DNA of 64,000 bases from an uncultured Chlorobiaceae bacterium (lineage in GTDB: Bacteria > Bacteroidota > Chlorobiia > Chlorobiales > Chlorobiaceae): the NCBI GenBank assembly GCA_903866255.1, contig CAIPMW010000032.1, forward strand, positions 1 through 64,000, in the 5' to 3' direction. The stretch's first letter is position 1. Every line of letters begins with the position of its first letter. The notes below the pieces were generated by a model, which had not been told where the DNA came from, did no database searches, and saw nothing but the letters and a program-made list of their open reading frames with translations. Below, one piece after another: positions 40,948 through 55,305 of this stretch. Position numbers and translations under genes: made by a program.

Positions 40948-42258
40948 TCACAAGCGGCTATATTGAGCAAGTATTGCGGAGCCAATATCTTCGAGTAAGG
41001 TTACCGCACCACGATAACCAGCATAGGAACGATTCAGCACGACCCGACCAGCAACAGGGAATGATAGCTGTACAAAAGGTACCTCCAACTCGGCAGCCAC
41101 CTCTTTTTCAAGGGCACTTCCCAGTACAATTGTGGCACCTCCAGAACGAACCAATTCCGATATTTTGGCAAGATCTTCGCTGAACAACACTTCCGGGCAA
41201 ATACCATCAACAAGAGAGGTCAATCTCGATAACAATGCTTCTCTGGCATACTCCGGAGGGTTGTCGGTGATAACCAGCGTTCGCGGTACAAGGCCGAGGG
41301 TGGCACTCAAAAACTCACTGATTCCCTCAACCTGGGCACTCTCTCCTACAAGTGCAAATTCACGCTGAAAACCTGCCAGGTACCAGGTATCGGCAAGAGC
41401 GGCGAGATGAGCATCAAATCGCTTCTCCTCATCCTCAACAAAGTGTTCTGTCTGGTTGGGGTCAAGCTGAAGACGTTTGCTGATGTTATAAAGAAAACGT
41501 CCTGCTGCAGCTCCAACCGGCAAACCTTCCAGCGCAAGGAGCGGTGTACCGTAGCGCTCCTCAAGCAGTAACGCAGGAGCATCTCCCCAAACCGAGACAA
41601 CAATATTGAGCAGAGCATCCGGAAGCCTCTGCCAACCAGCAACTCCCTGGCCATAGCCAAAAAGCAGATTCGGTGTCAGACCAATCCCTTCAAGCAGCCG
41701 CCCAATCTCCTCAAGATTGCCCGCCCAGAATGGATCCTGACGGGGAACTATTCCCAGAATATTGACTAGCCCTTTGAGGGGCAGTGGCTCAGACTTTCCG
41801 AGATCAGGCAACTGCTCAATCAACGCTTTTAATGCCAGTTGATAGCCTTGATGAACATCACCCCTGAACCCTGGTGTATTGGCATAGATAACGGGAAAAC
41901 CCTGCTCACGCCCCTCTTTATTCATTGCCGGAACATCATCACCAACCATTTCGGTAGAACATCCCGTCACAATGAGATAGAGATCCCCCTCAACAATTTT
42001 AACTGTATTTTTAAGTTGTTCCCGCAAGCGGGAGCTCCCTCCAAACACAACGTGCTTTTCACTGATATTGCTGCTCGAAAGCGCAGGAGCGCCGAATCGG
42101 TCACCTCCGGCAGTCAGACGATTGACTCCAAGATAATGTTGCGCACCGCAACCAGCAGTGCTGTGAAGCACAGGCACCACACCCTCGATTGCCTCAATGA
42201 CCTGAAGCGCCCCATGCAGAGCGCAAGAGTTGCGTGAACCGTCAATATGATGTGCCAT
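40948..42258 (-). CDS. Nitrogenase component 1-like subunit with three cluster cysteines
   Basis: The 436-residue product belongs to the NifD/K/E/N-BchN/B superfamily. It keeps all three cysteines that hold the interface cluster: Cys12 (S-C-A-L-H-G), Cys37 (S-T-A-G-C-G-A-Q) and the Cys in IVTGCSTEMVGDD. The segment VFGGSSRLREQL is NifK-like. In the region where NifD has the FeMo-cofactor cysteine (Cys275), the aligned stretch reads NIVVSVWGDAP, with no cysteine, so a FeMo-co-type site is doubtful. It is the last gene of the array and starts one base after the previous stop, using a strong Shine-Dalgarno inside that gene. It is shorter than NifK (~520) and closer to BchN in length. It should pair with the 42260-43672 product. 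Substrate unknown. Confidence 0.85.
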   Translation of the reverse strand: MAHHIDGSRNSCALHGALQVIEAIEGVVPVLHSTAGCGAQHYLGVNRLTAGGDRFGAPALSSSNISEKHVVFGGSSRLREQLKNTVKIVEGDLYLIVTGCSTEMVGDDVPAMNKEGREQGFPVIYANTPGFRGDVHQGYQLALKALIEQLPDLGKSEPLPLKGLVNILGIVPRQDPFWAGNLEEIGRLLEGIGLTPNLLFGYGQGVAGWQRLPDALLNIVVSVWGDAPALLLEERYGTPLLALEGLPVGAAAGRFLYNISKRLQLDPNQTEHFVEDEEKRFDAHLAALADTWYLAGFQREFALVGESAQVEGISEFLSATLGLVPRTLVITDNPPEYAREALLSRLTSLVDGICPEVLFSEDLAKISELVRSGGATIVLGSALEKEVAAELEVPFVQLSFPVAGRVVLNRSYAGYRGAVTLLEDIGSAILAQYSRL

Positions 42259-42259
42259 A

Positions 42260-43672
42260 CTATTTCACCTCCTTTTTGATATGCCAGTTGGGGCTGCGTC
42301 GCAACCATCCATCCTTGTAGGGTAACGGGGTTCGAGAGAGCGCTTCACCAAACGAGCGATTGAGCAATGCCGTTGATAATCGCCGCGCAAGTGCTGTTAC
42401 TCCACGGTAACCGAGAACAGAAGTGTCTCTGAGAGAGACTACCGGTATACCGAGTCTTCCCACCTGGGCAAGATGGAGCGAATCGCCAAGATAGAGATCC
42501 GGACAGAGGCGTTTGAGGATGTTCACCTCTTCAAAAGGCTGACCATCGGCCACATGAATCAACAGAGAGGGATGCCTCCCTGAGAGTTCTTCAAGAGCCC
42601 CCGTGTGCAGTTGGTCGAGACGACTCACGGTTATGCCGATGACCTCCCCACCAAGTTCCTCCACAAGCTCCAATATCCCGAAAGCAGTAGATGGAGCGAG
42701 CGCAAGATAGACGCGTATCCCTTTGAGGGTAAAATCGCCAAGAGAGTGGCGCACTTTTTCGGACTCCAGTTCATGCAGCCTTTGTGCCTCCTCTTCCAGA
42801 CCCAATGCACTGCCTATTCCTGCAAGCCAGCATCTGGTAGCGCCGATACCTGCAGGACGCGACACGGCGGCAAAGGGAACACCATACTCATCACGCAGGC
42901 AGAGAGCGAGATAATGGGCAGCATCCTGATCAAGGGATACTGAAAGTCTTGCCCTTGCAGCTCGCAGGAAAGAGTTCTTTGAAGCTCCGTCAGGAAGAGT
43001 GTTCAACTCCAGACCAAGAGCAAGCAGAAGGCGCTCGGCCTCATGGCGATCATGAGGATTCTCAGCAACTGAGAGCAGATTGACACTGTTATCCTGCTGA
43101 TGAACTCCCCTTTTTCCTCCCAGATATTTCAACAGGGAGTGCAGTGTTGTATCATAACCTGTCACGGCATGGTGTGAGGCAAAACCGGTCACATAGACCG
43201 GAATAATATCCAGCTCCAGCTCTTCATGCAGCTCCTCAACAACCGACTGAATGTCATCATTGTTGATGGCCACAACCGGGCTTGAAACAATAAAAAGTAG
43301 CTCCGGTTTATATCGTTGATTGACCTCTTTTACCGCCTTGCGCAGTTTCACGTCAGCACCCATGATGGTATCCCTGTCGTCAAGATTGGTAACAATCCAG
43401 CGACCTCTGCCACTCCCTGCCTGATGGAAAAGAGCAGATGCAGCACAGCCACGCGGAGCATGAATAACGACAACACTGTTCTTAATGCCTGCCAGAAGAC
43501 GCAGGGCATAGAGAAGATCATCCTCGGTACTCTGCGAGAAGGTGCGTATGCGTTTCTCCGGCTGCCCTTCAGAAAACTCGGTCAAGGCAGAAAATAGCGT
43601 TCCCTGCCAGGCGTTCAGTGAATCAAGCTGCTTCTCACGGGTACGGGCGGCTTTCGTTTTTAAAAGACTCAT
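42260..43672 (-). CDS. Nitrogenase component 1-like subunit with one cluster cysteine
   Basis: I place the start at the ATG at 43672 (470 residues) because GAGG lies 9 bases before it; the longer frame to 43732 would overlap the previous gene and add an unlikely leader. The product is a second component 1-like protein. Its IHAPRGCAAS segment aligns with BchB HAPQGD, where Asp36 ligates the DPOR cluster; here the position is Cys. The other two cluster positions are not cysteine: none occurs in the N-terminal part, and the IVSSPVVAINNDD stretch has Ser/Pro where nitrogenases have Cys. PAGIGATRCWLAGIG resembles the NifK/NifN P-V-G-x-x-x-T-D-x-W-L region. It most likely forms a heterodimer or heterotetramer with the three-cysteine subunit, docking the NifH-like protein. 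Substrate unknown. Confidence 0.83.
   Translation of the reverse strand: MSLLKTKAARTREKQLDSLNAWQGTLFSALTEFSEGQPEKRIRTFSQSTEDDLLYALRLLAGIKNSVVVIHAPRGCAASALFHQAGSGRGRWIVTNLDDRDTIMGADVKLRKAVKEVNQRYKPELLFIVSSPVVAINNDDIQSVVEELHEELELDIIPVYVTGFASHHAVTGYDTTLHSLLKYLGGKRGVHQQDNSVNLLSVAENPHDRHEAERLLLALGLELNTLPDGASKNSFLRAARARLSVSLDQDAAHYLALCLRDEYGVPFAAVSRPAGIGATRCWLAGIGSALGLEEEAQRLHELESEKVRHSLGDFTLKGIRVYLALAPSTAFGILELVEELGGEVIGITVSRLDQLHTGALEELSGRHPSLLIHVADGQPFEEVNILKRLCPDLYLGDSLHLAQVGRLGIPVVSLRDTSVLGYRGVTALARRLSTALLNRSFGEALSRTPLPYKDGWLRRSPNWHIKKEVK
42266..42274 (-). promoter_or_regulatory. Shine-Dalgarno embedded in the upstream gene
   Basis: On the minus strand, AAGGAGGTG lies 7 bases before the ATG at 42258 and is made of the last codons of the preceding gene (K-K-E-V-K-stop). 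The one-base gap and this embedded site indicate tightly coupled translation of the two component 1-like subunits. Confidence 0.8.
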
Positions 43673-43694: not shown

Positions 43695-44570
43695 TTAAAT
43701 AGACTCCATACTCTGTACCACGCCGGTCTCAACCTGAAGAATCCTGTCTCCCCAGCTTCTTGCCCACCGTTTCAATTCAGGCCCATTGAGAGGTTTGGGA
43801 ATAACCGACTCAAGGTTATGATCGATATGCCTGGCCAGCTTCCGGTAGACCTCCGCCTGTTCCGACTTGGGTAGCGCTTCAATGACGGTCTTGCCGAAAA
43901 GTTCGCTTTGTGCCACCGTCATAGAGCGTGGCACATATCCGATAACCGGAATCCCGGCCAGCTCTGCAAAATCATCAATTAAAGGCTGTGAATAGGGGTG
44001 CTGGATACTGTTGGCAATCACCCCGCCCAGACGTGCTCCACCCGATGGCGCATATTTATTGATGGCCTTGAAAAGATTATTTGCCGCAAAAATAGCCATA
44101 AAGTCTGAAGAGGTCACCACGAATGCCCGGTCAGCAATACCGTCACGAATGGGCACGGCAAATCCACCACACACAACGTCACCAAGCACATCATAAAGCA
44201 CAAAATCCGGCTTGTACTCATCGAAGAGATGCAGCTCCTGCAACAGTTCGACAGCAGCGTTGATACCTCGACCGGCGCAGCCGACACCGGGCACCGGGCC
44301 ACCGGCCTCGATGCAGAGTACTCCACCAAAGCCGACCGCAGAGATATCTTCAATCTTCACCTTGCTCTGCTCTCGCAAGGTATCGAGTACCGTTGGCAGG
44401 TCATTACCCCCGCGCAGAATTGTCGTCGAATCACTCTTTGGGTCGCAGCCGATCTGAATGACCCTGTAACCGGATTCGGCAAGGGCCGCACTGATATTTG
44501 AGGTAGTCGTGGACTTGCCAATCCCGCCCTTGCCGTAAATGGCAATATGTTTTCCACTTTTTTCACTCAT
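43695..44570 (-). CDS. NifH-like iron protein (ATP-dependent reductase)
   Basis: This P-loop ATPase should carry a [4Fe-4S] cluster across a homodimer and pass electrons to the two component 1-like subunits. I take the start at the ATG at 44570 (291 residues) since AAGGAG lies 7-8 bases upstream; an ATG six bases earlier is too close. In the 293-residue numbering: Walker [12 protein letters not shown] (16-26), switch I CDPKSDS, cluster ligands Cys100 (PGVGCAGRG) and Cys136 ([13 protein letters not shown]), and Arg103 at the NifH ADP-ribosylation position. These motifs are nearer NifH than BchL or BchX. The C-terminus ([16 protein letters not shown]) departs from NifH and resembles group IV nitrogenase-like H proteins as I recall them. 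It is not the structural nifH: no nifDKENB are nearby. Confidence 0.9.
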
Positions 44571-44603
44571 TGTCATACTCCTTCTTGTAAATAGTGTTCA
44601 TCA

Positions 44604-45395
44604 TCATGACCGCCGTGCTTGCAGCGGACTCAGACCGGGAATGGTAAACCCGCCTCCGGAGATGTCAATAAAGGCTCCTGTAATAAAAGAGGCTTCGTTG
44701 GAGAGCAGCCAGACAATCGGCCTGGCAACCTCATCAACAAGCCCCGGACGACCAACAGGAATGGTCGATGCTATCTCCGCAAGAGTTTGCGGGTCGGCCA
44801 CATAAGGCTCGGTCATCCCGGTTATGGTAAACCCGGGCCGTACAGAGAGTGCCCGAATGCCCTCCCGGGCAACCTCCTTTGCCAGACCGAGAGTGAAAGC
44901 ATCCACGGCACTTTTGGTCGCTGCGTAGAGGCTTGCCCCTGGACGCCCGCCAATGGTTGCAGCCATGGATGAGACGTTGATAATCACGCCGCCCTTGCCG
45001 CCGTGCAGGGTAGACATGCGGCACACCGCTTCACGAGTCGAGAGAATAAGTCCAAGCACATTGGTTTGAAACAGATAATGCAACTGATCCGCATCAGTCT
45101 CATCAACCCTGGCCGGAGGGGTGCCGATGCCTGCACTGTTGACAAGCGCGGTAACCCTGCCGAGTTTTTCATCAACCTCCCGGTACAGACGCTCAATATC
45201 GGCAGGACGGGAGATATCTGCCTGAAACGCGTATGCCTTGATGCCGGACGCGTTCAGTTCATCGACCAGTAGCCGGGCCTCACTCTCCCTGGTGCGATAG
45301 TTGATGGCAATATTGTACCCCTTTTCTGCGGCCAGTCTGGCCGTTGCGGCACCAATACCACTGGCACCGCCTGTTATCATCAGTACTTCCGACAT
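44604..45395 (-). CDS. Short-chain dehydrogenase/reductase (FabG-like)
   Basis: The 263-residue product is a classical SDR that should oxidise or reduce a hydroxyl/carbonyl group with NAD(P)H. The dinucleotide motif TGGASGIG is at residues 8-15, NSAG at 87-90, Ser143 in NVSS, and the catalytic pair Tyr157/Lys161 in YAATK. The 'INYRTRESEA' segment after strand 2, with Arg after the turn, suggests NADP preference, but this is weak. An AAGGA Shine-Dalgarno precedes the ATG. It lies between radical SAM enzyme 1 and the NifH-like gene with gaps of 42 and 33 bp, so it probably acts on the substrate, product or cofactor of the nitrogenase-like system. Fatty-acid FabG is less likely, as no fab genes are nearby. 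Confidence 0.9.
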   Translation of the reverse strand: MSEVLMITGGASGIGAATARLAAEKGYNIAINYRTRESEARLLVDELNASGIKAYAFQADISRPADIERLYREVDEKLGRVTALVNSAGIGTPPARVDETDADQLHYLFQTNVLGLILSTREAVCRMSTLHGGKGGVIINVSSMAATIGGRPGASLYAATKSAVDAFTLGLAKEVAREGIRALSVRPGFTITGMTEPYVADPQTLAEIASTIPVGRPGLVDEVARPIVWLLSNEASFITGAFIDISGGGFTIPGLSPLQARRS

Positions 45396-45437: not shown

Positions 45438-46649
45438 TCAAACAGCCTCAAGTGACAAGGCCTCCTCGCTGAATACAGGAAGCGTCTCATCCTCGATTCT
45501 GTAAATGTCATGCATAATGGTGATCGGCGCGGCATAGCAGTCATAAATATCATCAAAGGTAAATCCTGTCTTTCTGTAAATTGCCGTGATTTTTTTGTAC
45601 AGATCCAGATGCCACTCAGGTTCCGGAGAGCGATGGCCTTCAAGGGCCGAACCAGGGTTTGGATTCCAACTGGTCGCAAAGCAGACGACACCTTTTGATG
45701 CGAGGTATTCGATACCTTCGAGGGTAGAGTCCTTGGGTTCAATACCGGCGACTATGTTTGAGCGTACTTTTCCTTTTCCAAAGACCTGGGCTTCATACTC
45801 CAGCGTCTTCACCCAATGATCGTAGCCGCCGGACTCGATATCCTTGCCGGGGCAGATGGCCCGAAAAATGTTCTTGTCCCAGATCTCGATGTTTGTGGCG
45901 ACGGTACGGAACCCGGCTTCCTTGTATTTGTCGATAATGCTCAGGTCAAGAGGTGCACCGATAACTGCGGTGCCGTTAAAATCGGCAAGACCGGTATGCT
46001 CCCTGATGGAATCGGCAACGTCGAGGTAATACTCTACCTCTCGCCTCTCGGCAACAAAACCACCGGTAAGCGTAATGTGACGTGCGCCATCTTCGCGGTA
46101 GGCAGCCGCAACCGTCTCGCCAATCTGATGCGGGTACTTCCATCCAATACCTTCAACCTCACCATAAGTATTTTTCGTCGCATTGATGTTGCAGAATTTG
46201 CAATCACGTCCTTTTTCCTTGAAGGCGCACTCATTGCTGTAAGGCACAAGGATCGCTCCGTCCTGGGTATTAAGGGCAAGGGTATTCATTCTTACGCCAT
46301 CAGATGTTTTTTTGCCGTAATACTTCGGGCGCTCAAGAAATTCAACCGGAAAAATGACCTCCCCCTTGTGGGCAAGATAAAAAATGCCATTTTCGACAAT
46401 GAAAGAGTAAGGGGAGCGTCTGTCCCACTTCAGCGCAAAGACCAGTCCATGCGGTGACTTGAAGCCTGCAGGAAACTGAATTCCGACATGCGATTCATGG
46501 TCGCCTTCAAAAAGGCAGTGAATCTCCTCTTGATAGCGACCGCCAAGATCGAGGTTCCTGAAAATATGGGGATTGAAATTTATCCCTTCGACACCCGTAA
46601 TCACCTTCAATTCGAGTTCACGGTACAGCGTCTCTTTAAGTTTGCTCAT
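45438..46649 (-). CDS. Radical SAM enzyme 1 with CX8CX2C cluster motif
   Basis: The 403-residue product has a cluster motif CAFKEKGRDCKFC (Cys141, Cys150, Cys153), spaced CX8CX2C instead of the usual CX3CX2C. The central part has radical SAM barrel features such as HITLTGGF (the GGE-like SAM-amine contact) and IEIWDKNIFRAICPGK. An N-terminal ~115-residue region carries ERPKYYGKKTSDGVRM. It is clearly paralogous to the gene at 50774-52021, which shares the same cysteine spacing and the W-D-K, C-P-G-K and F-G-K-G segments. AAGGAT precedes the ATG at 8 bases. Its place next to the SDR and NifH-like genes suggests maturation of a cofactor or substrate chemistry for that system. It is not NifB, which has a CX3CX2C motif and different ligands. 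Confidence 0.85.
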   Translation of the reverse strand: MSKLKETLYRELELKVITGVEGINFNPHIFRNLDLGGRYQEEIHCLFEGDHESHVGIQFPAGFKSPHGLVFALKWDRRSPYSFIVENGIFYLAHKGEVIFPVEFLERPKYYGKKTSDGVRMNTLALNTQDGAILVPYSNECAFKEKGRDCKFCNINATKNTYGEVEGIGWKYPHQIGETVAAAYREDGARHITLTGGFVAERREVEYYLDVADSIREHTGLADFNGTAVIGAPLDLSIIDKYKEAGFRTVATNIEIWDKNIFRAICPGKDIESGGYDHWVKTLEYEAQVFGKGKVRSNIVAGIEPKDSTLEGIEYLASKGVVCFATSWNPNPGSALEGHRSPEPEWHLDLYKKITAIYRKTGFTFDDIYDCYAAPITIMHDIYRIEDETLPVFSEEALSLEAV

Positions 46650-46701: not shown

Positions 46702-47478
46702 TTATATGGAGTAGTTAAAATTCTGCTCAGTATGCAACATGAACTCTTCAAGAACCTTCTCTTTCATCTGAGCAAAATCTATACTTGCTCTATCTCTTGG
46801 CCGGGAAAGAGGTACAGGAATAATTTTTTGCAGTTTCCCTGGCCGGGCTGACATAACAACAATTTTGTCGGAAAGATAGACCGCCTCGTCAACATCATGT
46901 GTAACCATAATCATGGTAATACTCTCTTTTTTCCATATCCGCTCAAGCTCTTTGTGCATATACATTCTGGTCAAAGCATCAAGCGCACCAAGCGGTTCAT
47001 CCAAAAGCAGTATTTTCGGATTATTGACAAGAGAACGTGCTATTGCCGCGCGTTGTGACATACCTCCTGACAATTGATAGGGATAACTTTTTTCAAAACC
47101 TTTGAGCCCAACCAGTTCAATATGGTTTTGTACAATCTCTTTTTTCTCGGCATCAGTTTTACCAACAATACCAAGTCCAACATTTTTTTCAACCGTAAGC
47201 CAGGGAAACAATCGGTGATCCTGAAAAACAATTCCCCTGTCGAGACTTGGTCCATTAAGTTTGCGGCCATCAAGCAGAATATCTCCTGCATAGTCAGATT
47301 CAAGACCTACAATAAGACGCAACAAGGTTGTCTTTCCGCATCCACTCAAACCAACTATTGTTATAAACTCCCCTGATTTTACTGACAAGTTGATATCATC
47401 AAGAACATGAATCTCTCCCTCCTGACTTTTGAATTTCTTGCTCACATTCTTTACCGCAAGCGTCCCTGTACTTTTCAT
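46702..47478 (-). CDS. ABC transporter ATPase, nitrate/sulfonate/taurine type
   Basis: The 258-residue product is the energy-coupling subunit of a NrtD/SsuB/TauB-type importer. Walker A GLSGCGKTT (residues 43-51), signature LSGGMSQR (136-143), Walker B ILLLDEP (156-162) and the H-loop THDVDEA are intact, and the D-loop LGALD follows Walker B. It begins 4 bp after permease B and has only a weak GAGA ribosome site, so translational coupling is likely. With the two permeases and the binding protein further upstream it forms a complete importer. The family covers nitrate, cyanate, taurine, aliphatic sulfonates, thiamine precursors and others; sequence alone does not settle the substrate. Confidence 0.92.
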   Translation of the reverse strand: MKSTGTLAVKNVSKKFKSQEGEIHVLDDINLSVKSGEFITIVGLSGCGKTTLLRLIVGLESDYAGDILLDGRKLNGPSLDRGIVFQDHRLFPWLTVEKNVGLGIVGKTDAEKKEIVQNHIELVGLKGFEKSYPYQLSGGMSQRAAIARSLVNNPKILLLDEPLGALDALTRMYMHKELERIWKKESITMIMVTHDVDEAVYLSDKIVVMSARPGKLQKIIPVPLSRPRDRASIDFAQMKEKVLEEFMLHTEQNFNYSI

Positions 47479-47482
47479 ATAA

Positions 47483-48265
47483 TTATCTCGATTGTTTCAA
47501 TGTTATTCTCCAGAAAGAGAAAAGTCTTTCAAGTTTTCGCATAGTGAAGTTCATAGCAAAACCAACAAATGCGATAGCAATAATACCAACGACGACCAGA
47601 TCCATTCTTGAAAATTCTCTGCAGGCCCACATCATTTCACCAATGCCGCCTCCTGATGTCATAAATATTTCGGCGGCAACAACCAGCATCCATGAAATAC
47701 TCAAGCTTAATCGTAGACCTGTAAGTGTTGCCGGAAAACTTGAGGGTAAAATTATCTTGAAAAAGCATTTCACTTTACTGAATTTGAACATCCTGCCAAC
47801 CTCCATATAATCGTGCCGTACACTTTTAACGCCCTCAAACGTATTGAGCACGACAGGATAGCAGGCTCCCATGGCGATAAAAAGTACTCTCGACATCTCC
47901 CCAAGACTTACTAACACCAATAAAGGTGCCCATGCTGGTAAAGGCACCTGACGGATTGCATTGAAAATCGGAGTGATCAATTTTTCTAAAAATCGCGACA
48001 TTCCAAGAGTTATGCCAATGAGAAATCCGGTGGTCGAACCAAGAAGAAAACCTTTCAAAACTCTTATAACACTGATGTTGAGGTTATAAAAAAAACTGCC
48101 GTCATTGAGAACCTCATAAAAGCCGGCAAGAACATCAGACGGAGATGGAAATAAATTTCCCGGCAGAACATTGTACCGTGAAGCGAGAAACCAGGCTACA
48201 AAAATGGTCGCTGGCAGAAGTGCAGCTTCTAATACATGCGTCAATTTTATGTTCTTGATTTTCAT
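47483..48265 (-). CDS. ABC permease B, nitrate/sulfonate/taurine type
   Basis: The 260-residue membrane protein has about six hydrophobic helices and the BPD-type EAA loop (around residues 150-170, VRHDYMEVGRMFKFSKVKCF, then ILPSSFPATLTGLRLSLS) that docks on the ATPase. It belongs with SsuC/TauC/NrtB permeases. The gap to permease A is 24 bp and to the ATPase 4 bp. The importer has two different permeases, whereas SsuC and TauC systems normally use one as a homodimer, so the two may form a heterodimer or serve alternative channels. The substrate is not fixed by sequence. Confidence 0.9.
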   Translation of the reverse strand: MKIKNIKLTHVLEAALLPATIFVAWFLASRYNVLPGNLFPSPSDVLAGFYEVLNDGSFFYNLNISVIRVLKGFLLGSTTGFLIGITLGMSRFLEKLITPIFNAIRQVPLPAWAPLLVLVSLGEMSRVLFIAMGACYPVVLNTFEGVKSVRHDYMEVGRMFKFSKVKCFFKIILPSSFPATLTGLRLSLSISWMLVVAAEIFMTSGGGIGEMMWACREFSRMDLVVVGIIAIAFVGFAMNFTMRKLERLFSFWRITLKQSR

Positions 48266-48289: not shown

Positions 48290-49072
48290 TTATTTTGTTG
48301 CGGTTGGACGATGCCAGCGCATAAGTGATGATTCAAACGTGTTAAGAGTCAGGAACATCAGATAACCTATACAGCCAACGACCGCAATACCCACAAAAAC
48401 AATATCCATCTGAAATAACTGTCGCCCCCATACAATAAGGTATCCGACACCTTCACCTGCGGCTACAAGTTCAGCTCCCACAACAAGCATCCACGACATC
48501 CCGAGCGCAAGCTTGATCCCTGTAAAAAGGGATGGCAGCGCTGCGGGCAGCAGAACTTTTCCAAGAAGCTTTACAGAGCTGAATTCAAAAGCGCGGGCCA
48601 CTTCGATGTATGATTTTGGAACACCATGAATCCCTTCAAACGTATTGATCAGCATGGGGAAAAATGCCCCGAAAGCGATAAAGACAACTTTAAATGTCTC
48701 TCCAATCCCAAACCATAAGATGAGAATAGGAATCCAGCCAAAAAGAGGCACCTGACTCAAGGCACTCAACAAAGGGGCAACAATGCGCTCAGACCTTTTC
48801 GAAAGAGCGATGACTGTTCCTGTGATAAAACCAAGTGAGGCTCCCAGAACAAAACCAGCCAAAACCCGGGATAAACTGATTCGAAAATGCTCTGACAGTT
48901 CACCTGTGTTCATCAGCTCCAAAAAAGTTATGACCACTTTATGTGGAGGAATGACAATCTGGGATGGCACCATTTCAAGCTTGCAGATGACCTCAATAAA
49001 GATCACAAGCAGAATTGGAACAATCAGCCCGATAGCAACGGTTTTGATTTTTTCAGACTTAATAAAAGGCAT
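48290..49072 (-). CDS. ABC permease A, nitrate/sulfonate/taurine type
   Basis: I take the ATG at 49072 (260 residues) because AAGGAG is 7 bases before it; a GTG one codon earlier is less well placed. The protein has about six membrane helices and the EAA loop (VPKSYIEVARAFEFSSVKLL, then VLLPAALPSLFTGIKLALG), then GMSWMLVVGAELVAA, which is typical of this family. It is a diverged paralogue of permease B. Its start overlaps the end of the MFS gene by 14 bp, tying the carrier and importer genes into one transcript. Confidence 0.9.
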   Translation of the reverse strand: MPFIKSEKIKTVAIGLIVPILLVIFIEVICKLEMVPSQIVIPPHKVVITFLELMNTGELSEHFRISLSRVLAGFVLGASLGFITGTVIALSKRSERIVAPLLSALSQVPLFGWIPILILWFGIGETFKVVFIAFGAFFPMLINTFEGIHGVPKSYIEVARAFEFSSVKLLGKVLLPAALPSLFTGIKLALGMSWMLVVGAELVAAGEGVGYLIVWGRQLFQMDIVFVGIAVVGCIGYLMFLTLNTFESSLMRWHRPTATK

Positions 49073-50288
49073 CACGAGACTCCTTGTTGATTGATACAGT
49101 ACTCAAATGAGCTGTTGCCTTGATTGATAACCTGTTGTGCTGGTTGAAATAAAGCTTGACGGCCAGTGCAAGATAGAGTGGTATAAAAACCAGAAATACC
49201 GCCTGCACTCCAAAAAACTCACCGGCAAATCCTCCAATGACAGGCCCTGCAATTGAACCCAACACGGTAAACATGGCAAAAATACCAGCCGTCTTTCCCT
49301 TTTCTACATTGGCATTTGCAATGCGGGTCACATTGATCAGATTGAACATCCCAAGACCGATTCCGATGAGTATGGTTCCTGCGACAAGAAATGCTGGATG
49401 CCAAATACATGAAAGCAGGGCCAGACCTGTAACAACAAATCCAATACTTGTCAGATAGAAATGATATTCTTCGAGTTTGTCAAGAAGGCGCCAGAGGGTG
49501 AACAAGGTTGCAATAAATGACAAGCCTTCGACTGACACAAAGAGTGATGCTGTCTGGGTGGAAAAATGAAACACCCGAATGGCAAGCACAACGATAAAGG
49601 CATTGAAAGAGGAAAATGTGGCCAGCGCCAGCGCTTCCGCGCCGGAGGCCTGAAGGATGTTCCGGTCTTTAAAGAGCTCTCTTACATCTGATATCCGCTC
49701 ACCTAAAGAACGCCCTTCTGAAACCTTGCTGTCAGGGAAAATAGCCACAGCGCCAATAATCAACAGTAAGACAAAAGCACTCACCAGGTAAAAGGTAGCA
49801 TTGAAGCCGAGGTATTTACTCATGGATGCACCAAAGACCGGGCCGAGAAAAACAAGACCGAAGGAGTGAGATCCACGTTGCCAGCCAGCCTTGTTACTTC
49901 CCACTTTTCGGACAAACTCAAGAAAGACGCTGCTCAAGGGAATAAACCTGAATGCGGTAAAAAAGCCGGTGACCGCAACGAAAGAGCAGAGGGTCTGTGA
50001 TGTGTTTGCAAAAGGGAAAAAGAGGTATATGATGGAGCTGGTTATAGCTCCAAAAATAAACACTTTCCTCGGGCCAACATGATCGACCAAAAAACCGATT
50101 GGTAAAACTGTAAAAAGCAGACCGATTCCCTGCATGCCACCTATCATGCCAATCTGGGCACTTGTTGCGCCAAGCGCAACAGCATAGAGTGTCACTGCAA
50201 TCTGTGCCATACCCATGCTCATCCCGCCTACAACAGAGAGAAGCATGAATTGAAACAGCAGTTTACCGTCATCACCGGATTGTTTCAT
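49059..50288 (-). CDS. MFS transporter
   Basis: The 409-residue protein has about twelve hydrophobic segments in two halves. The conserved loop after helix 2 reads GFLVDHVGPRKVF (major-facilitator motif A, G-x-L-a-D-r-x-G-r-k). A central hydrophilic loop lies near residues 195-215. It starts in an ATGA overlap with the FMN-protein gene and ends inside permease A. Within this array it may export the product or a by-product of the nitrogenase-like enzyme, or import a second substrate; neither direction can be read from sequence. Confidence 0.88.
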   Translation of the reverse strand: MKQSGDDGKLLFQFMLLSVVGGMSMGMAQIAVTLYAVALGATSAQIGMIGGMQGIGLLFTVLPIGFLVDHVGPRKVFIFGAITSSIIYLFFPFANTSQTLCSFVAVTGFFTAFRFIPLSSVFLEFVRKVGSNKAGWQRGSHSFGLVFLGPVFGASMSKYLGFNATFYLVSAFVLLLIIGAVAIFPDSKVSEGRSLGERISDVRELFKDRNILQASGAEALALATFSSFNAFIVVLAIRVFHFSTQTASLFVSVEGLSFIATLFTLWRLLDKLEEYHFYLTSIGFVVTGLALLSCIWHPAFLVAGTILIGIGLGMFNLINVTRIANANVEKGKTAGIFAMFTVLGSIAGPVIGGFAGEFFGVQAVFLVFIPLYLALAVKLYFNQHNRLSIKATAHLSTVSINKESRDAFY

Positions 50289-50755
50289 TCTGAGTGCCTC
50301 AAAAGATCAAGATGGCTGTGGAACAGGCCTCGTTCTTCTCTTGCCAATGAGCTTCGCACTGCAGGAGATTCGTTTCGTACCTCTTCCGGGGTAATAACCC
50401 AGACACCGGCAATATCAGCTTCAGCACCTCTCCTTTCACGCGCCCGGTCAAGAAGCTGCCTGAAGACACTCCCCGTAATCAAATATTTGTACGGGCGACC
50501 CTTGACTTGATAACTGGTTAAGCCTTTGGTAATATTGATGGCAACTTTTTTGTCAAACCAGATACTTCTGACCAGATTTTTATTGCTGAGAGAGCCTTCC
50601 AGCCCTTCAGCAAAAACAATTGTTTCATTATCAAGCGTGGTCAGTGATCCTTTGACGACAACATGGGGATGCCCTTCACCATCAATGGTAGCAATCACTT
50701 TAATGCTCCCTGTATCGTGGAGAAGCGCAATAAGTTCTTCTGGTAGTTTACTCAT
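50285..50755 (-). CDS. FMN-binding split-barrel (PNPOx-like) protein
   Basis: The 156-residue protein resembles the pyridoxamine 5'-phosphate oxidase-like family: 'IKVIATIDGEGHPHVVVKGS' gives the first barrel strands, followed by 'ETIVFAEG', 'LVRSIWFDKKVAINITKG' and 'PYKYLITGSVF'. Such proteins bind FMN or F420, sometimes haem. The C-terminal ~40 residues (from EADIAGVWVITPEEV) are helical and charged. It overlaps the MFS gene by four bases (ATGA) and is 18 bp from radical SAM enzyme 2. It may supply electrons or reduce an intermediate in the pathway. No ligand can be assigned. Confidence 0.78.
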   Translation of the reverse strand: MSKLPEELIALLHDTGSIKVIATIDGEGHPHVVVKGSLTTLDNETIVFAEGLEGSLSNKNLVRSIWFDKKVAINITKGLTSYQVKGRPYKYLITGSVFRQLLDRARERRGAEADIAGVWVITPEEVRNESPAVRSSLAREERGLFHSHLDLLRHSE

Positions 50756-50773: not shown

Positions 50774-52021
50774 TTAGTTTAACCGTTCAAGATCACTGTC
50801 GCCATGATTGCCGCAGTGCTTGAAATCATCGTTATCAGATGCCAGACCGTAGTGCTTGCGAATTTCGACAAGCCCCCTGATCAGACGCACATAGTATTCG
50901 AGCGGTGGCTGCTGCTGCCCGGCGAGGCCCGTTCCCCGGCCTGGCCTCCAGACAATGCTCAGATAGACCACACCATTTTTTGAGAAATATTCGCACGCCT
51001 CAAAGTTCGAGTCAAGTGCCTGTTCGATACTTGTAAAGCCATGGGGCTGCACAAATTCAACACCGGCAACAAAATTCGTGTAAACATTTCCCTTGCCGAA
51101 GATCTCAACAGCATCAAGAGCACTCTTGATCCAGTAATCGCGCCCATACCACTTCTCCTTGCCGGGGCAGATCCACTTGAAAAGCTCTTTGTCCCACACC
51201 TCAATGTCAGGGCAGTATGAAGAGAGCCCTGTTTCGTCATAAAGCCGCTTTACCTGCTGCTTGCTGTATGCTGGAGCAATCAACTGGCTGGGGAATCTTC
51301 TGGTTTTGAAGTTCCTGCCAATCGCCTGCAGCACCTCGACATAACGCTTCACCTCGTTTTCAAAGGGTACCTCGCCGGAATAGTCCGTGCCTGCCGTCAG
51401 GTTGATCTGAGAGAAACGGCCAGGCTCCTTGATTGCCTCGCGTACCGTCTCAAAAAGATCTTCCGGGTGAACAATCTTGGCATAAGAGTCACCAGCCAAC
51501 TGCTTCTGCGTCTTCAGATCAGTGAAGAAACCGCAGAATTTGCACTGCTCCCTGGTATCCCAATAATGGCAATAGCGGTATGGGTAGAGATCCAGACGCT
51601 GCGGCCTCGACCAGGCAATTGATTCCATGGGGACACCACGGCTCGTCAGCTTTCCGTAAAATTCAGGTCTTGGAGAAAAATCCACCTCATCAAGACGCTC
51701 TCCGTTATCGTATACATAAAACTTGCCATCGATATAATCGACAGTATAGGGCTTGAGCAGCGTGCTGTCCGTTGGACCAGTAAGAACACTGGTGCCATCA
51801 CGCAGAAGAATCGGGCCCGGAAGTGGACGGACGGCTGTCTCTTTGGTTGAAAAAGCGGTCACTTCCGGACCACGATAGTAAGGCGTGCAGGTGGCATCTG
51901 CAGCAGCATCGCTCAAGGTTATCCCGCGTCGTTGCAAATCAAGCTTCAGAATGATTAACCTGGGAACATCAGCATATTTCTCACTGAGAGCTTCTACCCC
52001 TGACTCTTGGTTATGACTCAT
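50774..52021 (-). CDS. Radical SAM enzyme 2 with CX8CX2C cluster motif
   Basis: I start at the ATG at 52021 (415 residues); a GTG lies one codon upstream and no strong ribosome site is visible. The cluster motif CHYWDTREQCKFC (about Cys151, 160 and 163) has CX8CX2C spacing, as in the gene at 45438-46649. Shared landmarks include PRPEFYGKLTSRGVPM, INLTAGTDYSG (SAM contact region), IEVWDKELFKWICPGK and IFGKGNVYTNFVAG. The N-terminus has a further ~35-residue stretch absent from the paralogue. It lies between the binding-protein gene and the FMN-protein gene, in the uptake half of the array. The two enzymes could catalyse successive steps, or form a heterodimer. Confidence 0.85.
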   Translation of the reverse strand: MSHNQESGVEALSEKYADVPRLIILKLDLQRRGITLSDAAADATCTPYYRGPEVTAFSTKETAVRPLPGPILLRDGTSVLTGPTDSTLLKPYTVDYIDGKFYVYDNGERLDEVDFSPRPEFYGKLTSRGVPMESIAWSRPQRLDLYPYRYCHYWDTREQCKFCGFFTDLKTQKQLAGDSYAKIVHPEDLFETVREAIKEPGRFSQINLTAGTDYSGEVPFENEVKRYVEVLQAIGRNFKTRRFPSQLIAPAYSKQQVKRLYDETGLSSYCPDIEVWDKELFKWICPGKEKWYGRDYWIKSALDAVEIFGKGNVYTNFVAGVEFVQPHGFTSIEQALDSNFEACEYFSKNGVVYLSIVWRPGRGTGLAGQQQPPLEYYVRLIRGLVEIRKHYGLASDNDDFKHCGNHGDSDLERLN

Positions 52022-52092
52022 CACAATTCAATGTTTAGGTTTGCAGAAGTCCATAGGCTGGCGCACAGGACTCCTGCAGAGTGTGAAAAAAA

Positions 52093-53130
52093 TTACTTCC
52101 AGAAATTTTCAAGCTTCAGCTCTCTTAATGCGGCATCCAGATAACTCCGGTCAATCCAGGTATTGATATCAAAAGTGTTCCGTATCAAGCCCCTCTCTTT
52201 TGCAAAAGCAATGCCGCCGACGTAATGACTGACGTACTCTTTATCAAAAAGAACATCATTAACATCTTTTAGGGAACGGCCTTCAATCTCTTCAAGTGCT
52301 ACCGCACGAGGTGTTCCTCCCTTGACCGCGATGTCCAAAAATTCTTTTCTGTTTTTTTCGTCCGATGCCCATTTGGCGGCCTGTACATAAACCTTGACAA
52401 TGCGCCTTGTGATGTCAGGGTTTTCCTTTGCAAAAGATTCTGTTACGTAGAAACCGCCAGTATTTCGCCAGTCACGCGGGCTCTCTTTTGTTGAATAAAT
52501 GATCTTTGCGTTCCCCTGGCTGCGAAGCAATAAATTATTTGTCCAGGCGACTGAAGCATCAATATTTTTGGTTTTCATAGCAGCATCGAGATCGGCAATA
52601 CCGAGATTGTAAATCTTCAGATCACTCTCCTTCAGATTATTTGCTTCGAGAATACGGGCCAGGGTCAGGTGGGCATTTGTTCCCTTGAACAGACCAACCC
52701 GTTTACCTTTCAGCTCCTTGACAGAGGTTATTTTAGAGTCATTGGGCACGCCGATATAGACATTGGTATACTTGGAGCCGCCGGCAATGAACCTGGTTTT
52801 GAGTCCCCCAGCTCGCCCTACAATAGCGGGAAGATCTCCGATGTAGGCAAAATCAATGGCATGATTGGCCAGCGACTCATTGGTCGCCGGTCCCGCACCC
52901 TTGAAAAAAGCCCAGTCAAATTTGATGCCGTCGTTTTTAAACTCCTCCTCCAGCAAACCTTTGGCATGGACGATACCGATGATGCCAGCACCATAAGGTT
53001 TTCCGTAACCAGCCGAATAGGCTGAGCCGATACGGATAACGGCTGGTTTGTTTGCTGCTGCCTGCAATGAAGTACCGCCAAACACCACCACAGTGATCAG
53101 GGTAACAAGTATGGAAAATGTATGTTTCAT
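52093..53130 (-). CDS. Periplasmic binding protein, SsuA/NMT1 type
   Basis: The 345-residue protein begins with a Sec signal peptide (basic MKHTF, hydrophobic core, likely cut near residue 24 after SLQA). Mature sequence has features of the aliphatic sulfonate/nitrate/thiamine-precursor binding family: IGSAYSAGYGKPYGAGI near the start, GAGPATNESLANHAIDFAYI-type ligand loop, then GSKYTNVYIGVP, ELKGKRVGLFKGTNAH and WTNNLLLRSQGNAK. A GGAGAG site precedes the start. It is most likely the receptor for the ABC importer encoded at 46702-49072. Aromatic residues in the loops fit a small organic ligand, but sulfonate is only one option. Confidence 0.9.
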   Translation of the reverse strand: MKHTFSILVTLITVVVFGGTSLQAAANKPAVIRIGSAYSAGYGKPYGAGIIGIVHAKGLLEEEFKNDGIKFDWAFFKGAGPATNESLANHAIDFAYIGDLPAIVGRAGGLKTRFIAGGSKYTNVYIGVPNDSKITSVKELKGKRVGLFKGTNAHLTLARILEANNLKESDLKIYNLGIADLDAAMKTKNIDASVAWTNNLLLRSQGNAKIIYSTKESPRDWRNTGGFYVTESFAKENPDITRRIVKVYVQAAKWASDEKNRKEFLDIAVKGGTPRAVALEEIEGRSLKDVNDVLFDKEYVSHYVGGIAFAKERGLIRNTFDINTWIDRSYLDAALRELKLENFWK

Positions 53131-53162: not shown

Positions 53163-54476
53163 TTAAAAGGTGTACTGAAGCTGGGCAAGAAACTCATTGT
53201 TTGCTACCCCGTTGCTCTCTTCTGTGATGATATTGTAGTTAATCTGTAACTTGGTGGTCTGGGCAAAAAACCAGTTCAATCCAATGGTGGTTATATCTTT
53301 CCTGTTGCCGCTTATGCTGGTATCTGGATCCCACCGGTCAAAACGCACAAACGGCTGAAATGTGGTTGGATACCAGTCATCATAACGATCCTGTGACTTG
53401 TAGCCAGCGACAAACTGTTCACCCTGGTTATAAAATATGGTAAGTGTTCGTCCACTCTTTTTAACAGCATTGTCTTCGCCATCGACAGACTCAAAAGTAA
53501 AACCGACTGGCGTGTTGACATAGGAGAGATCAAAGCCACTCCTCTTTTTATCGACAGTACCCAAAGCGCCACTCTTTCCTGTGTAATAGGAGCCTCCTAA
53601 CGATAACCCGCGAAAAATTGAGGAATAGTCAACAGGGGCATTCAGCACAATTCTGCCGACAATATCCTTCTGTTTATTGTCGTCGGTAAGATTGGTATAA
53701 CCGAACGCGTCTGAGCCCCTGCCGTTGAGTAACCCAACTGAATACTCTATTGCTGGAACACGGTAGCGAAAACCGGGATCAAACTGAGGGAGCAGATCAC
53801 CTTTGATAACGATGCCAAGATCGCGAGCATCAAGATCAAGGAGACCTGCCCTGGCTGATTGAGCAAGCTTGATCGTTGGCTTTTTATCTTCACCTGCAAG
53901 TGCTTCAAGGCCAAATGGTTTTTTCTGCTTGCCAAACGAGATGCTTAACAGTGCCTCTTCAGGATTAAGCGAGGGAAGAAGAAATGCGGTGATATATGCA
54001 TCAAGCGGAGATACCCTGAAATCAGTTGTTCCATCGGCATTTGCGCCACTGGGTGAGGAGAAGCTGAAAAGATAATTGATATTGCGTCCCTCTTCATAAT
54101 CCCGTTTAAGGCTTCCCTGAAAATTGAGCACAAGAGCATTCAGGTCGAAACCATATTTTGTTGCGTTTTCCACCTGGGTATATCGGAGCTGAGCGATACC
54201 GGTAAAAATGAGCGACCTCTGGGTCCGTGCTGTGTTATTTTCCAGCGTTCTTTGCCACAACTCCTGAAGTGTAGCAACTTCTCCTCTGACACCTTCAAGC
54301 TCTTCCCTTGTTATTGGCTCCTCTTTAATGGTTTTTTCTTCAACGGCGACAACTTCAGCAGAGTCGCTTTGCTGTATGGCAGTCAGACGATCCTTGTCAT
54401 TTATCTGGGCAGCCTGAAGATTGTTGCCAATCAATAGACCTCCAATAAGCAGTACTGAAAATTTTATTTTACTCAT
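53163..54476 (-). CDS. Outer-membrane porin (phosphate-selective porin O/P-like)
   Basis: I start at the ATG at 54476 (437 residues), because it opens with a clean signal peptide (MSKIKFSVLLIGGLLIGNNL, then QA); the frame extends to 54620 but that adds an AT-rich, unlikely leader. After the signal come a charged, coiled-coil-like periplasmic segment (about residues 40-80, E/L/R-rich) and then alternating amphipathic beta strands ending in AQLQYTF, with the C-terminal Phe typical of barrel proteins. The arrangement resembles OprP/OprO-family porins. It is first in the 13-gene array and probably admits the substrate taken up by the periplasmic binding protein 32 bp downstream. Confidence 0.82.
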   Translation of the reverse strand: MSKIKFSVLLIGGLLIGNNLQAAQINDKDRLTAIQQSDSAEVVAVEEKTIKEEPITREELEGVRGEVATLQELWQRTLENNTARTQRSLIFTGIAQLRYTQVENATKYGFDLNALVLNFQGSLKRDYEEGRNINYLFSFSSPSGANADGTTDFRVSPLDAYITAFLLPSLNPEEALLSISFGKQKKPFGLEALAGEDKKPTIKLAQSARAGLLDLDARDLGIVIKGDLLPQFDPGFRYRVPAIEYSVGLLNGRGSDAFGYTNLTDDNKQKDIVGRIVLNAPVDYSSIFRGLSLGGSYYTGKSGALGTVDKKRSGFDLSYVNTPVGFTFESVDGEDNAVKKSGRTLTIFYNQGEQFVAGYKSQDRYDDWYPTTFQPFVRFDRWDPDTSISGNRKDITTIGLNWFFAQTTKLQINYNIITEESNGVANNEFLAQLQYTF

Positions 54477-55305
54477 TATTTTTGTTGTTGATGATTTAGA
54501 ATAACAGTTTGAAAACAAAAAAGCCGACCCTTTGAAAATAAGAATCAGCTCCATTATTAACTTTTTGGAATAATCAATATTACGATTATGGAGCAAACGC
54601 TTTAAGGTTAATCTTGACAAAAAGACAACAACTATTAAACTTTATCCTCTTCATTCTCTATGAATTTATTTATAATTAATTTCTGAATTTAGACTTCTAT
54701 TACGGCATCGATTGATAAAAAATATTTATTCTATTATAGAAATATAAGCGCACAAGCAGGCCGCTGAATAAAAAAGAAATATTTCAATACAACATAGAAT
54801 TTTTTTCAAGTTACATTCATGTTGCTATAATCTTATATCACTAACGAAGAATAAGTAAAATCAATTTGTTAATATTTTACAAGTATCTACCATAAAAATA
54901 CCATGTATATGGTATTCGGATTTACATAAAAAGACAAGCAATATATTTACAATAAATCCAAAGCGACACATCAATCGACTCTTCAGAAATAACCGTTCCG
55001 TAATAAACATCGTCAACATACAGGAGATAGTAAATCCCGTTTAAGTGGCATATTGCATACCATAAAGAGGCCATGCCCGGTTACAGAACTGCTTTGGTGC
55101 GCTTATTGCCCGTTAACGTCAATGCCCTTTTCGTGTGTCAGCAAATCCTTGCACACAACGATACATCCCGACTGATGCGGCATCTTCCTGAGAAACTCTT
55201 GTCATACACCCCAAAATTCGGTCTTTTCCTCCTAATGACTGTAGAAACTAAAGAGTATCTATTATCACAGAAAAAAAACTTCCTGATTTTTTATACCGAT
55301 AATAG
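54477..55305. other. AT-rich intergenic region upstream of the 13-gene array
   Basis: About 830 bp of markedly AT-rich sequence separates the porin from the inverted-repeat element. I find no gene in it; the only frame of note (55073-55354, plus) has no family features and runs into the repeat. It presumably contains the promoter of the array on the minus strand and possibly one toward folD. Canonical -35/-10 pairs are not clear; a TTGACA at about 54613 on the plus strand has only a weak -10 partner. Confidence 0.5.
54570..54589. promoter_or_regulatory. Candidate operator palindrome upstream of porin gene
   Basis: A perfect 6-bp inverted repeat, ATAATC-8-GATTAT, lies about 95 bp before the porin start. 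Its spacing fits a dimeric regulator site. AT-rich sequence yields such repeats by chance, so support is weak. Confidence 0.25.

Follow-up and report, generated by a model that had tools for sequence, protein, structure and literature searches.

A probable isethionate reductase-type enzyme in a green sulfur bacterium

The stretch of DNA analysed here (the window; 64,000 nucleotides of contig CAIPMW010000032.1, assembly GCA_903866255.1) comes from a green sulfur bacterium, an uncultured member of the Chlorobiaceae. Its reverse strand encodes two adjacent nitrogenase-like subunits, an isrD-like NifD-side subunit of 470 residues (42260..43672, (-); PF00148, E 8.8e-61) and an isrK-like NifK-side subunit of 436 residues (40948..42258, (-); PF00148, E 1.6e-68). 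D and K are probably the catalytic subunits of a nitrogenase-like enzyme of the isethionate reductase (Isr) type, encoded in an operon with an Fe-protein reductase (H), a variant radical S-adenosylmethionine (SAM) protein (IsrB), an SDR-family oxidoreductase and a sulfonate-type importer. Family membership, operon, conservation of four cysteines, loss of P- and L-cluster ligands and fold form the basis of this assignment. Because four interface cysteines are conserved, three in K and one in D, and ligands of the FeMo cofactor (FeMo-co) are absent, the complex would most likely contain a single [4Fe-4S] cluster; judging from the residues present, a six-cysteine P-cluster as in nitrogenase is not possible.

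The D subunit had its best-matching relatives on Chlorobiaceae contigs (56-85% identity); next came those of Geobacteraceae, Clostridium, Paenibacillus and Rhodopseudomonas/Rhodovulum. Sample scans of the order and family of the Rhodovulum genome yielded no further isr copy. The tree was built by a quick method with SH-aLRT support, and its deep forks are weak. The IsrD clade, which includes the purple-bacterial Isr-type genes, received a support of 100 and the IsrK clade one of 96; both stood apart from Mar and from the six-cysteine groups. IsrK grouped with MarK in a Mar/Isr/NflX K group (support 100) and IsrD with MarD (support 99), with profile-profile scores of 804 for IsrK-MarK and 554 for IsrD-MarD. 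The best sequence matches in the PDB were MarD (9fmg_A) for D and MarK (9d9u_C) for K. AlphaFold2 single-chain models reached a mean predicted local distance difference test (pLDDT) score of 83.8 for D and 82.9 for K, with low-confidence stretches at D residues 163-169 and K residues 43-76. In fold comparison the D model matched MarD 9fmg_A best (Z 39.6, root mean square deviation 2.4 Å over 436 residues) and the K model MarK 9d9u_D (Z 43.7, 2.5 Å over 411 residues); BchB came next (Z 33 for D and Z 36 for K). A sequence-only reading of this DNA had described the site as similar to that of dark-operative protochlorophyllide oxidoreductase (DPOR). As a statement of kinship this did not hold: MarDK, not DPOR, is closest by sequence, tree and fold, and a DPOR-like origin of DK is ruled out by tree, profile scores and fold.

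The features described for Isr-type proteins were found, namely a D subunit whose single conserved cysteine corresponds to NifD Cys88 and which has Pro/Ser in place of Cys154, three K cysteines, and a B-H-D-K gene set with a variant radical SAM protein (here in the order rSAM2-SDR-H-D-K). Those of other families were not. Two D cysteines of Mar are replaced by Asp and Pro, and the MarD His429 position holds Ser. The MarD Cys270 (FeMo-co/L-cluster) position, correctly read earlier as lacking Cys, holds Asp in the window's D subunit and differs among members of the family; two loci of a second Isr-type clade, L023 and L036, do have a Cys there. The six P-cluster cysteines and FeMo-co Cys275/His442 of the nitrogenases (Nif/Vnf/Anf) are missing, and NCBIfam equivalog scores are far below the cut-offs. 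With regard to DPOR, the BchB equivalog scores, 101.6 and 66.4 bits, fall well short of the cut-off of 490, and the BchB Asp36 column holds Cys. For chlorophyllide a oxidoreductase (COR), K scored 48.1 bits against BchZ (cut-off 529), D gave no match, and the clade is separate.

Four interface cysteines are conserved across the family

Conservation was counted over the non-gap rows of a first alignment set, with 34-36 sequences per subunit from four phyla. The K cysteines were invariant: K-Cys12 (codon 42223..42225, (-); MarK Cys32/NifK Cys70 position; 34/34 rows), K-Cys37 (codon 42148..42150, (-); MarK Cys56/NifK Cys95 position; 35/35) and K-Cys100 in TGCSTEMVGDD (codon 41959..41961, (-); MarK Cys121/NifK Cys153 position; 35/35). 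The same is true of D-Cys76 in HAPRGCAAS (codon 43445..43447, (-); NifD Cys88/MarD Cys91 position; 36/36). The other two D positions are occupied by an invariant D-Asp51 (codon 43520..43522, (-); MarD Cys66/NifD Cys62 position; 34/34) and by D-Pro132 (codon 43277..43279, (-); MarD Cys158/NifD Cys154 position; Pro in 33/34 and Ser in 1/34 rows). No other cysteine is conserved in the family, any further one of the window proteins being shared by at most three rows; the check for additional conserved cysteines in the 470-residue subunit was negative. Both open reading frames, and the allotment of three interface cysteines to the 436-residue subunit and one to its partner, agree with the sequence-only reading.

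A second set was taken from two Bacillota orders, with Isr-type D defined by a score above 450 bits; it overlaps the first set at two loci, and one locus is counted twice. Here, Isr-type D proteins had Asp/Cys/Pro-or-Ser at the three positions in 15/15 cases and Isr-type K proteins Cys/Cys/Cys in 14/14, while the scorable non-Isr D relatives had Cys/Cys/Cys in 44/44. Together with the separate clade and the loss of two D cysteines, these counts bear out the earlier claim that the pair is set apart from nitrogenase and from relatives that keep six cysteines.

Relation to published isethionate reductase and to Mar

Rhodobacter capsulatus requires nflBHDK (renamed isrBHDK) to obtain its sulfur from isethionate under anaerobic conditions (Morimoto et al. 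2024, PMC11423573). B, H and DK were all needed for growth on isethionate, and the role of the essential IsrB was left open (PMC11423573). The published IsrD keeps only Cys74, at the NifD Cys88 position, the other two positions being Arg and Pro/Ser; IsrK keeps Cys12, Cys37 and Cys99, IsrH has Cys99/135, and IsrDK is without FeMo-co Cys275 and His442 (PMC11423573). It was proposed that the four IsrDK cysteines may hold a [4Fe-4S] cluster, a site likened to the three-Cys-plus-Asp site of DPOR, and purified IsrDK showed a dithionite-sensitive absorption near 410 nm, indicating an Fe-S chromophore (PMC11423573). The 1+3 cysteine pattern, the missing FeMo-co ligands, the [4Fe-4S] reading and the DPOR comparison are already in print in that 2024 paper (PMC11423573). 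As main hosts of Isr it names Bacillota, Spirochaetes, Pseudomonadota and Myxococcota, with few exceptions; the string "Chlorob" does not occur in its main text (PMC11423573). New here is the large set of Chlorobiota and Geobacter-type members added to the group; the present member, its operon and the IsrB banks described below are an extension of the known Isr kind.

The window genes resemble the R. capsulatus system in the B-H-D-K set, the sulfonate importer (SsuABC-like here) and the variant radical SAM protein, as well as in the one D and three K cysteines, the Pro/Ser at the third D position and the lack of the FeMo-co Cys and His. They differ in the SDR gene between B and H and in a second variant radical SAM gene, an MFS gene and a PNPOx-like gene; the host is a green sulfur bacterium, and many relatives carry several IsrB paralogues. 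The sole disagreement with the published features concerns the first lost D cysteine, an invariant Asp in our alignments as opposed to the published Arg. MarHDK (PDB 9fmg, 9d9u), the nearest solved structure for both subunits, cleaves a C-S bond and has a partner radical SAM protein. However, Mar keeps six P-cluster cysteines and the L-cluster Cys and His, whereas the Isr-type proteins have lost two of these cysteines and both L-cluster ligands.

The three-plus-one set as a probable mirror image of that in DPOR and COR

Isr-type subunits were aligned jointly with NifD/K/E/N, V- and Fe-nitrogenase, MarD/K and BchN/B/Y/Z. The D-Cys76 column is the one in which BchB has Asp36, exactly where the sequence-only reading had put it. 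In COR (BchXYZ), all three positions are Cys in BchY, and only the second, again the D-Cys76 column, is Cys in BchZ. COR rows came from the window's own genome, a second Chlorobium, Rhodopseudomonas and Rhodovulum (BchZ), and the COR ligand residues are taken from this alignment and from a review, which also reports a [4Fe-4S] cluster in (BchY/BchZ)2 by electron paramagnetic resonance (EPR) (PMC7242693). An all-cysteine 3+1 interface site holding a [4Fe-4S] cluster thus exists in COR and counts in favour of such a cluster here, although the three-cysteine subunit of COR is BchY instead of the NifK-side subunit and its substrate is a tetrapyrrole. DPOR (BchLNB) shares the 3+1 ligand set and the column of the single ligand, but that ligand is Asp, the three-cysteine subunit is BchN, and the enzyme is distant by tree and profile score. 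The earlier description "as in DPOR but with Cys replacing Asp" agrees with the column and the 3+1 count but is not supported as it was worded: it overlooks that COR is already all-cysteine and that the three-cysteine subunit lies on the opposite side.

BchN is generally equated with NifD and BchB with NifK. Profile scores clearly favoured the K side for BchB and BchZ and moderately the D side for BchN, and were ambiguous for BchY. Since tree and profiles place IsrK on the K side, and if the accepted BchN/NifD and BchB/NifK equivalence is followed, the three-cysteine subunit here would be the mirror image of that in DPOR and COR. Its presence on the K side, in a lineage that groups with six-cysteine P-cluster enzymes, suggests that reduction to a 3+1 set took place more than once and from opposite sides.

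Proposed mechanism and points against it

In the proposed mechanism, a sulfonate would enter the cell via the porin and the ABC importer. Hydrolysing ATP, the Fe-protein would deliver low-potential electrons, one at a time, to DK, each half of which would carry one [4Fe-4S] cluster at the subunit interface with K-Cys12, K-Cys37, K-Cys100 and D-Cys76 as ligands. DK and the radical SAM protein would then drive reductive C-S bond cleavage with release of sulfite, in an enzyme predicted to contain neither FeMo-co nor L-cluster. What we infer in this scheme is the type of cluster, which substrate the organism uses and how DK and B share the work.

Four points weigh against this assignment. Green sulfur bacteria normally live on sulfide, and a need to assimilate sulfur from isethionate is not obvious in such a host. 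The SDR, the second radical SAM protein and the MFS transporter are not among the genes found necessary in R. capsulatus. Membership in the Isr group is probable, judged from the described R. capsulatus features and from other purple-bacterial copies. Lastly, Asp51 is invariant where related enzymes have a cluster ligand, and a larger cluster could use it as its fifth. IsrD distribution in the genus is patchy (6/25 genomes). The genome has two adjacent sulfite-reductase-fold genes of DsrA/DsrB size, a naming that goes by their position and length alone; Xsc was not found above the cut-off.

Another substrate than isethionate is a serious possibility, falling a little short of an even chance, and would be compatible with the Isr-type assignment: the complex may act on a different sulfonate or organosulfur compound, the SDR catalysing a preparatory or a final step in its conversion. 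In its favour, window-type clusters carry, between isrB and isrH, an SDR gene for which no requirement was reported in R. capsulatus, a second HDK clade is surrounded by different ABC transporters, and genomes with two HDK sets exist. The importer genes, on the other hand, are of the aliphatic sulfonate type and compatible with isethionate.

IsrB paralogue banks and the role of HDK

Variant radical SAM proteins were counted in 41 related genomes with NF045502 at its cut-off of 125 bits. They were present in 6/6 genomes with IsrD but only in 8/41 overall (hypergeometric P 6e-6, ignoring kinship), and all 16 of 16 other Isr genomes had them, with 1 to 12 copies each. The window's genome contains only two, both within this operon, and purple bacteria have a single one per HDK. 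In several Chlorobiaceae, four to six tandem rSAM2-type paralogues, 66-88% identical, surround one SDR-H-D-K set (L011:3-12020, L013:132-12057, L014:1578-12056 and L016:643-11983). Paralogue lineages are common to different genomes: L011_4896 grouped with L016_4879 (support 100), and L011_703 with copies of L012, L013 and L014 (support 98). This pattern suggests that the IsrB paralogues were duplicated and then kept apart for different tasks. Because the role of IsrB is open and diverged paralogues are kept apart across genomes, a substrate-setting role for IsrB is favoured, though not shown.

These banks bear on a second alternative, in which HDK would not itself cleave the C-S bond but would use ATP to supply low-potential electrons to, or to activate, substrate-specific IsrB-type radical SAM enzymes. 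Up to six variant radical SAM paralogues flanking one DK pair in Chlorobiota, their duplicated and separately maintained lineages, the lack of active-site metallocluster ligands in DK and the essential role of IsrB in R. capsulatus (PMC11423573) would all fit. Yet purple bacteria manage with one radical SAM protein per HDK, and several maturases or activators for one enzyme would give the same picture; we regard this alternative as conceivable but rather doubtful. Its specific form for Chlorobiota and relatives, one ATP-driven HDK set, with a mirror-image 3+1 interface cluster and lacking an active-site metallocluster, as a shared low-potential electron supplier to an IsrB bank in which each IsrB sets the organosulfur substrate, is more tentative still and on balance unlikely. 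The banks beside one HDK set make the question of whether IsrB or HDK cleaves the C-S bond testable by paralogue comparison.

Asp51 as a candidate fifth ligand

The derivation of four ligands from three plus one, as in the sequence-only reading, stands for the four conserved cysteines but leaves the invariant Asp51 out of the count; with it, there are five candidate ligands. In a rival reading, the interface cluster would be larger or otherwise unusual, for example P-cluster-like (8Fe/7Fe), and held by K-Cys12, K-Cys37, K-Cys100, D-Cys76 and D-Asp51. Asp51 occupies the position of the first P-cluster cysteine of MarD and NifD, also in 15/15 proteins of the Bacillota set. The profile alignment of IsrD TFSQSTEDDLL with MarD PFQQASMCAEH is gap-free from Asp51 to the shared cysteine, and the spacing to Cys76 (25 residues) equals that in MarD. 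Moreover, Asp is able to ligate a [4Fe-4S] cluster, as in BchB, and the Mar enzymes, the nearest relatives, have a P-cluster. Against this, the third D cysteine position is a non-ligating Pro. In the models D-Asp51 and K-Cys12 each stand immediately before the first helix (D helix 52-60), and Asp51 may merely be its N-cap. BchB retains a cysteine at the third position, although only Asp36 is counted as its ligand, and conservation at such positions is no proof of ligation; the 3+1 sites of COR and DPOR contain a [4Fe-4S] cluster. We consider the larger cluster improbable; Asp51 may bind the cluster, may cap the helix or may do neither. Its recognition corrects the published residue (Arg) and frames a single testable question about a fifth ligand.

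That DK is a chlorophyll enzyme (DPOR/COR) or a nitrogenase can be dismissed, in spite of a bacteriochlorophyll-making host, a shared superfamily and a 3+1 set resembling that of COR: the identity is refuted by eight separate copies in the genome (NifD, NifK, NifE, NifN, BchN, BchB, BchY and BchZ), by NCBIfam equivalog scores for D and K far under the cut-offs and by the separate clade.

Gene features of the operon

The genes lie on one strand in the transcription order porin, SsuA-family protein, rSAM1, PNPOx-like protein, MFS transporter, two permeases, ABC ATPase, rSAM2, SDR, H, D, K. The isrD-like gene starts with ATG, an alternative upstream TTG giving 490 residues, and isrK starts 1 base past the isrD stop, with AAAGGAGG upstream of its start. 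The isrH-like gene (43695..44576, (-)) encodes an Fe-protein (NifH family) reductase of 293 residues (PF00142, E 4.6e-97), whose cluster is expected to be bound by Cys100 and Cys136; Cys44/88/100/136 are retained in the purple-bacterial copies. The SDR gene (44604..45395, (-); PF13561, E 1.8e-48) accompanies window-type clusters, adjoining HDK in L011, L013-L018, L020, L021 and L039. The isrB-like rSAM2 (45438..46649, (-); 403 residues; NF045502, 469.5 bits) has a CX8CX2C motif at residues 141-153 and shares 52-54% identity with the purple-bacterial copies adjoining HDK.

The importer consists of an ABC ATPase of the nitrate/sulfonate/taurine type (46702..47478, (-)) and two SsuC/NtrB-type permeases (47483..48265 and 48290..49075, both (-)), all assigned by family profile matches. 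An MFS transporter (49059..50288, (-); PF07690, E 1.1e-35) and a small PNPOx-like protein (50285..50755, (-); PF01243, E 2.1e-4, below the Pfam cut-off) follow. The second variant radical SAM protein, rSAM1 (50774..52024, (-); 416 residues, motif CX8CX2C; NF045502, 223.7 bits), is more divergent and adjoins the PNPOx-like gene. This pair recurs in L018, L021 and L034, and also in other contexts in L012, L013, L027 and L032. Further out lie an SsuA-family (aliphatic sulfonate) periplasmic binding protein (52093..53130, (-); PF09084; TIGR01728 162.7 bits, just under the cut-off of 163.5) and an O/P-type outer-membrane porin (53163..54620, (-); PF07396, E 3.6e-10).

Further Isr-type and nitrogenase-like groups

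A second Isr-type HDK clade, with D about 57% identical to that of the window, comprises L023-L033, L036 and L040 from Chlorobiaceae and Geobacteraceae. Its members mostly lack an adjoining rSAM2 and are accompanied by other ABC exporters or importers and NMT1-type binding proteins; in genomes such as G053, radical SAM copies lie approximately 10-18 kb away. Genomes JABDHL and JABDHK carry two HDK sets each. At L015:6290-7699 the D gene contains an in-frame stop, splitting it into 296 and 173 residues, which may reflect misassembly or a defective gene.

Another nitrogenase-like DK group, from Paenibacillus and Clostridium (L086, L090, L131, L132 and L137-L141), has six P-cluster cysteines and the L-cluster Cys and stands beside Mar and Isr, within neither. 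Genomes G516, G517, G495, G502 and G555, of the order of Clostridium polyendosporum, had at least seven NifD-like matches each; many of these copies are of the six-cysteine Mar type, and some are tightly clustered.

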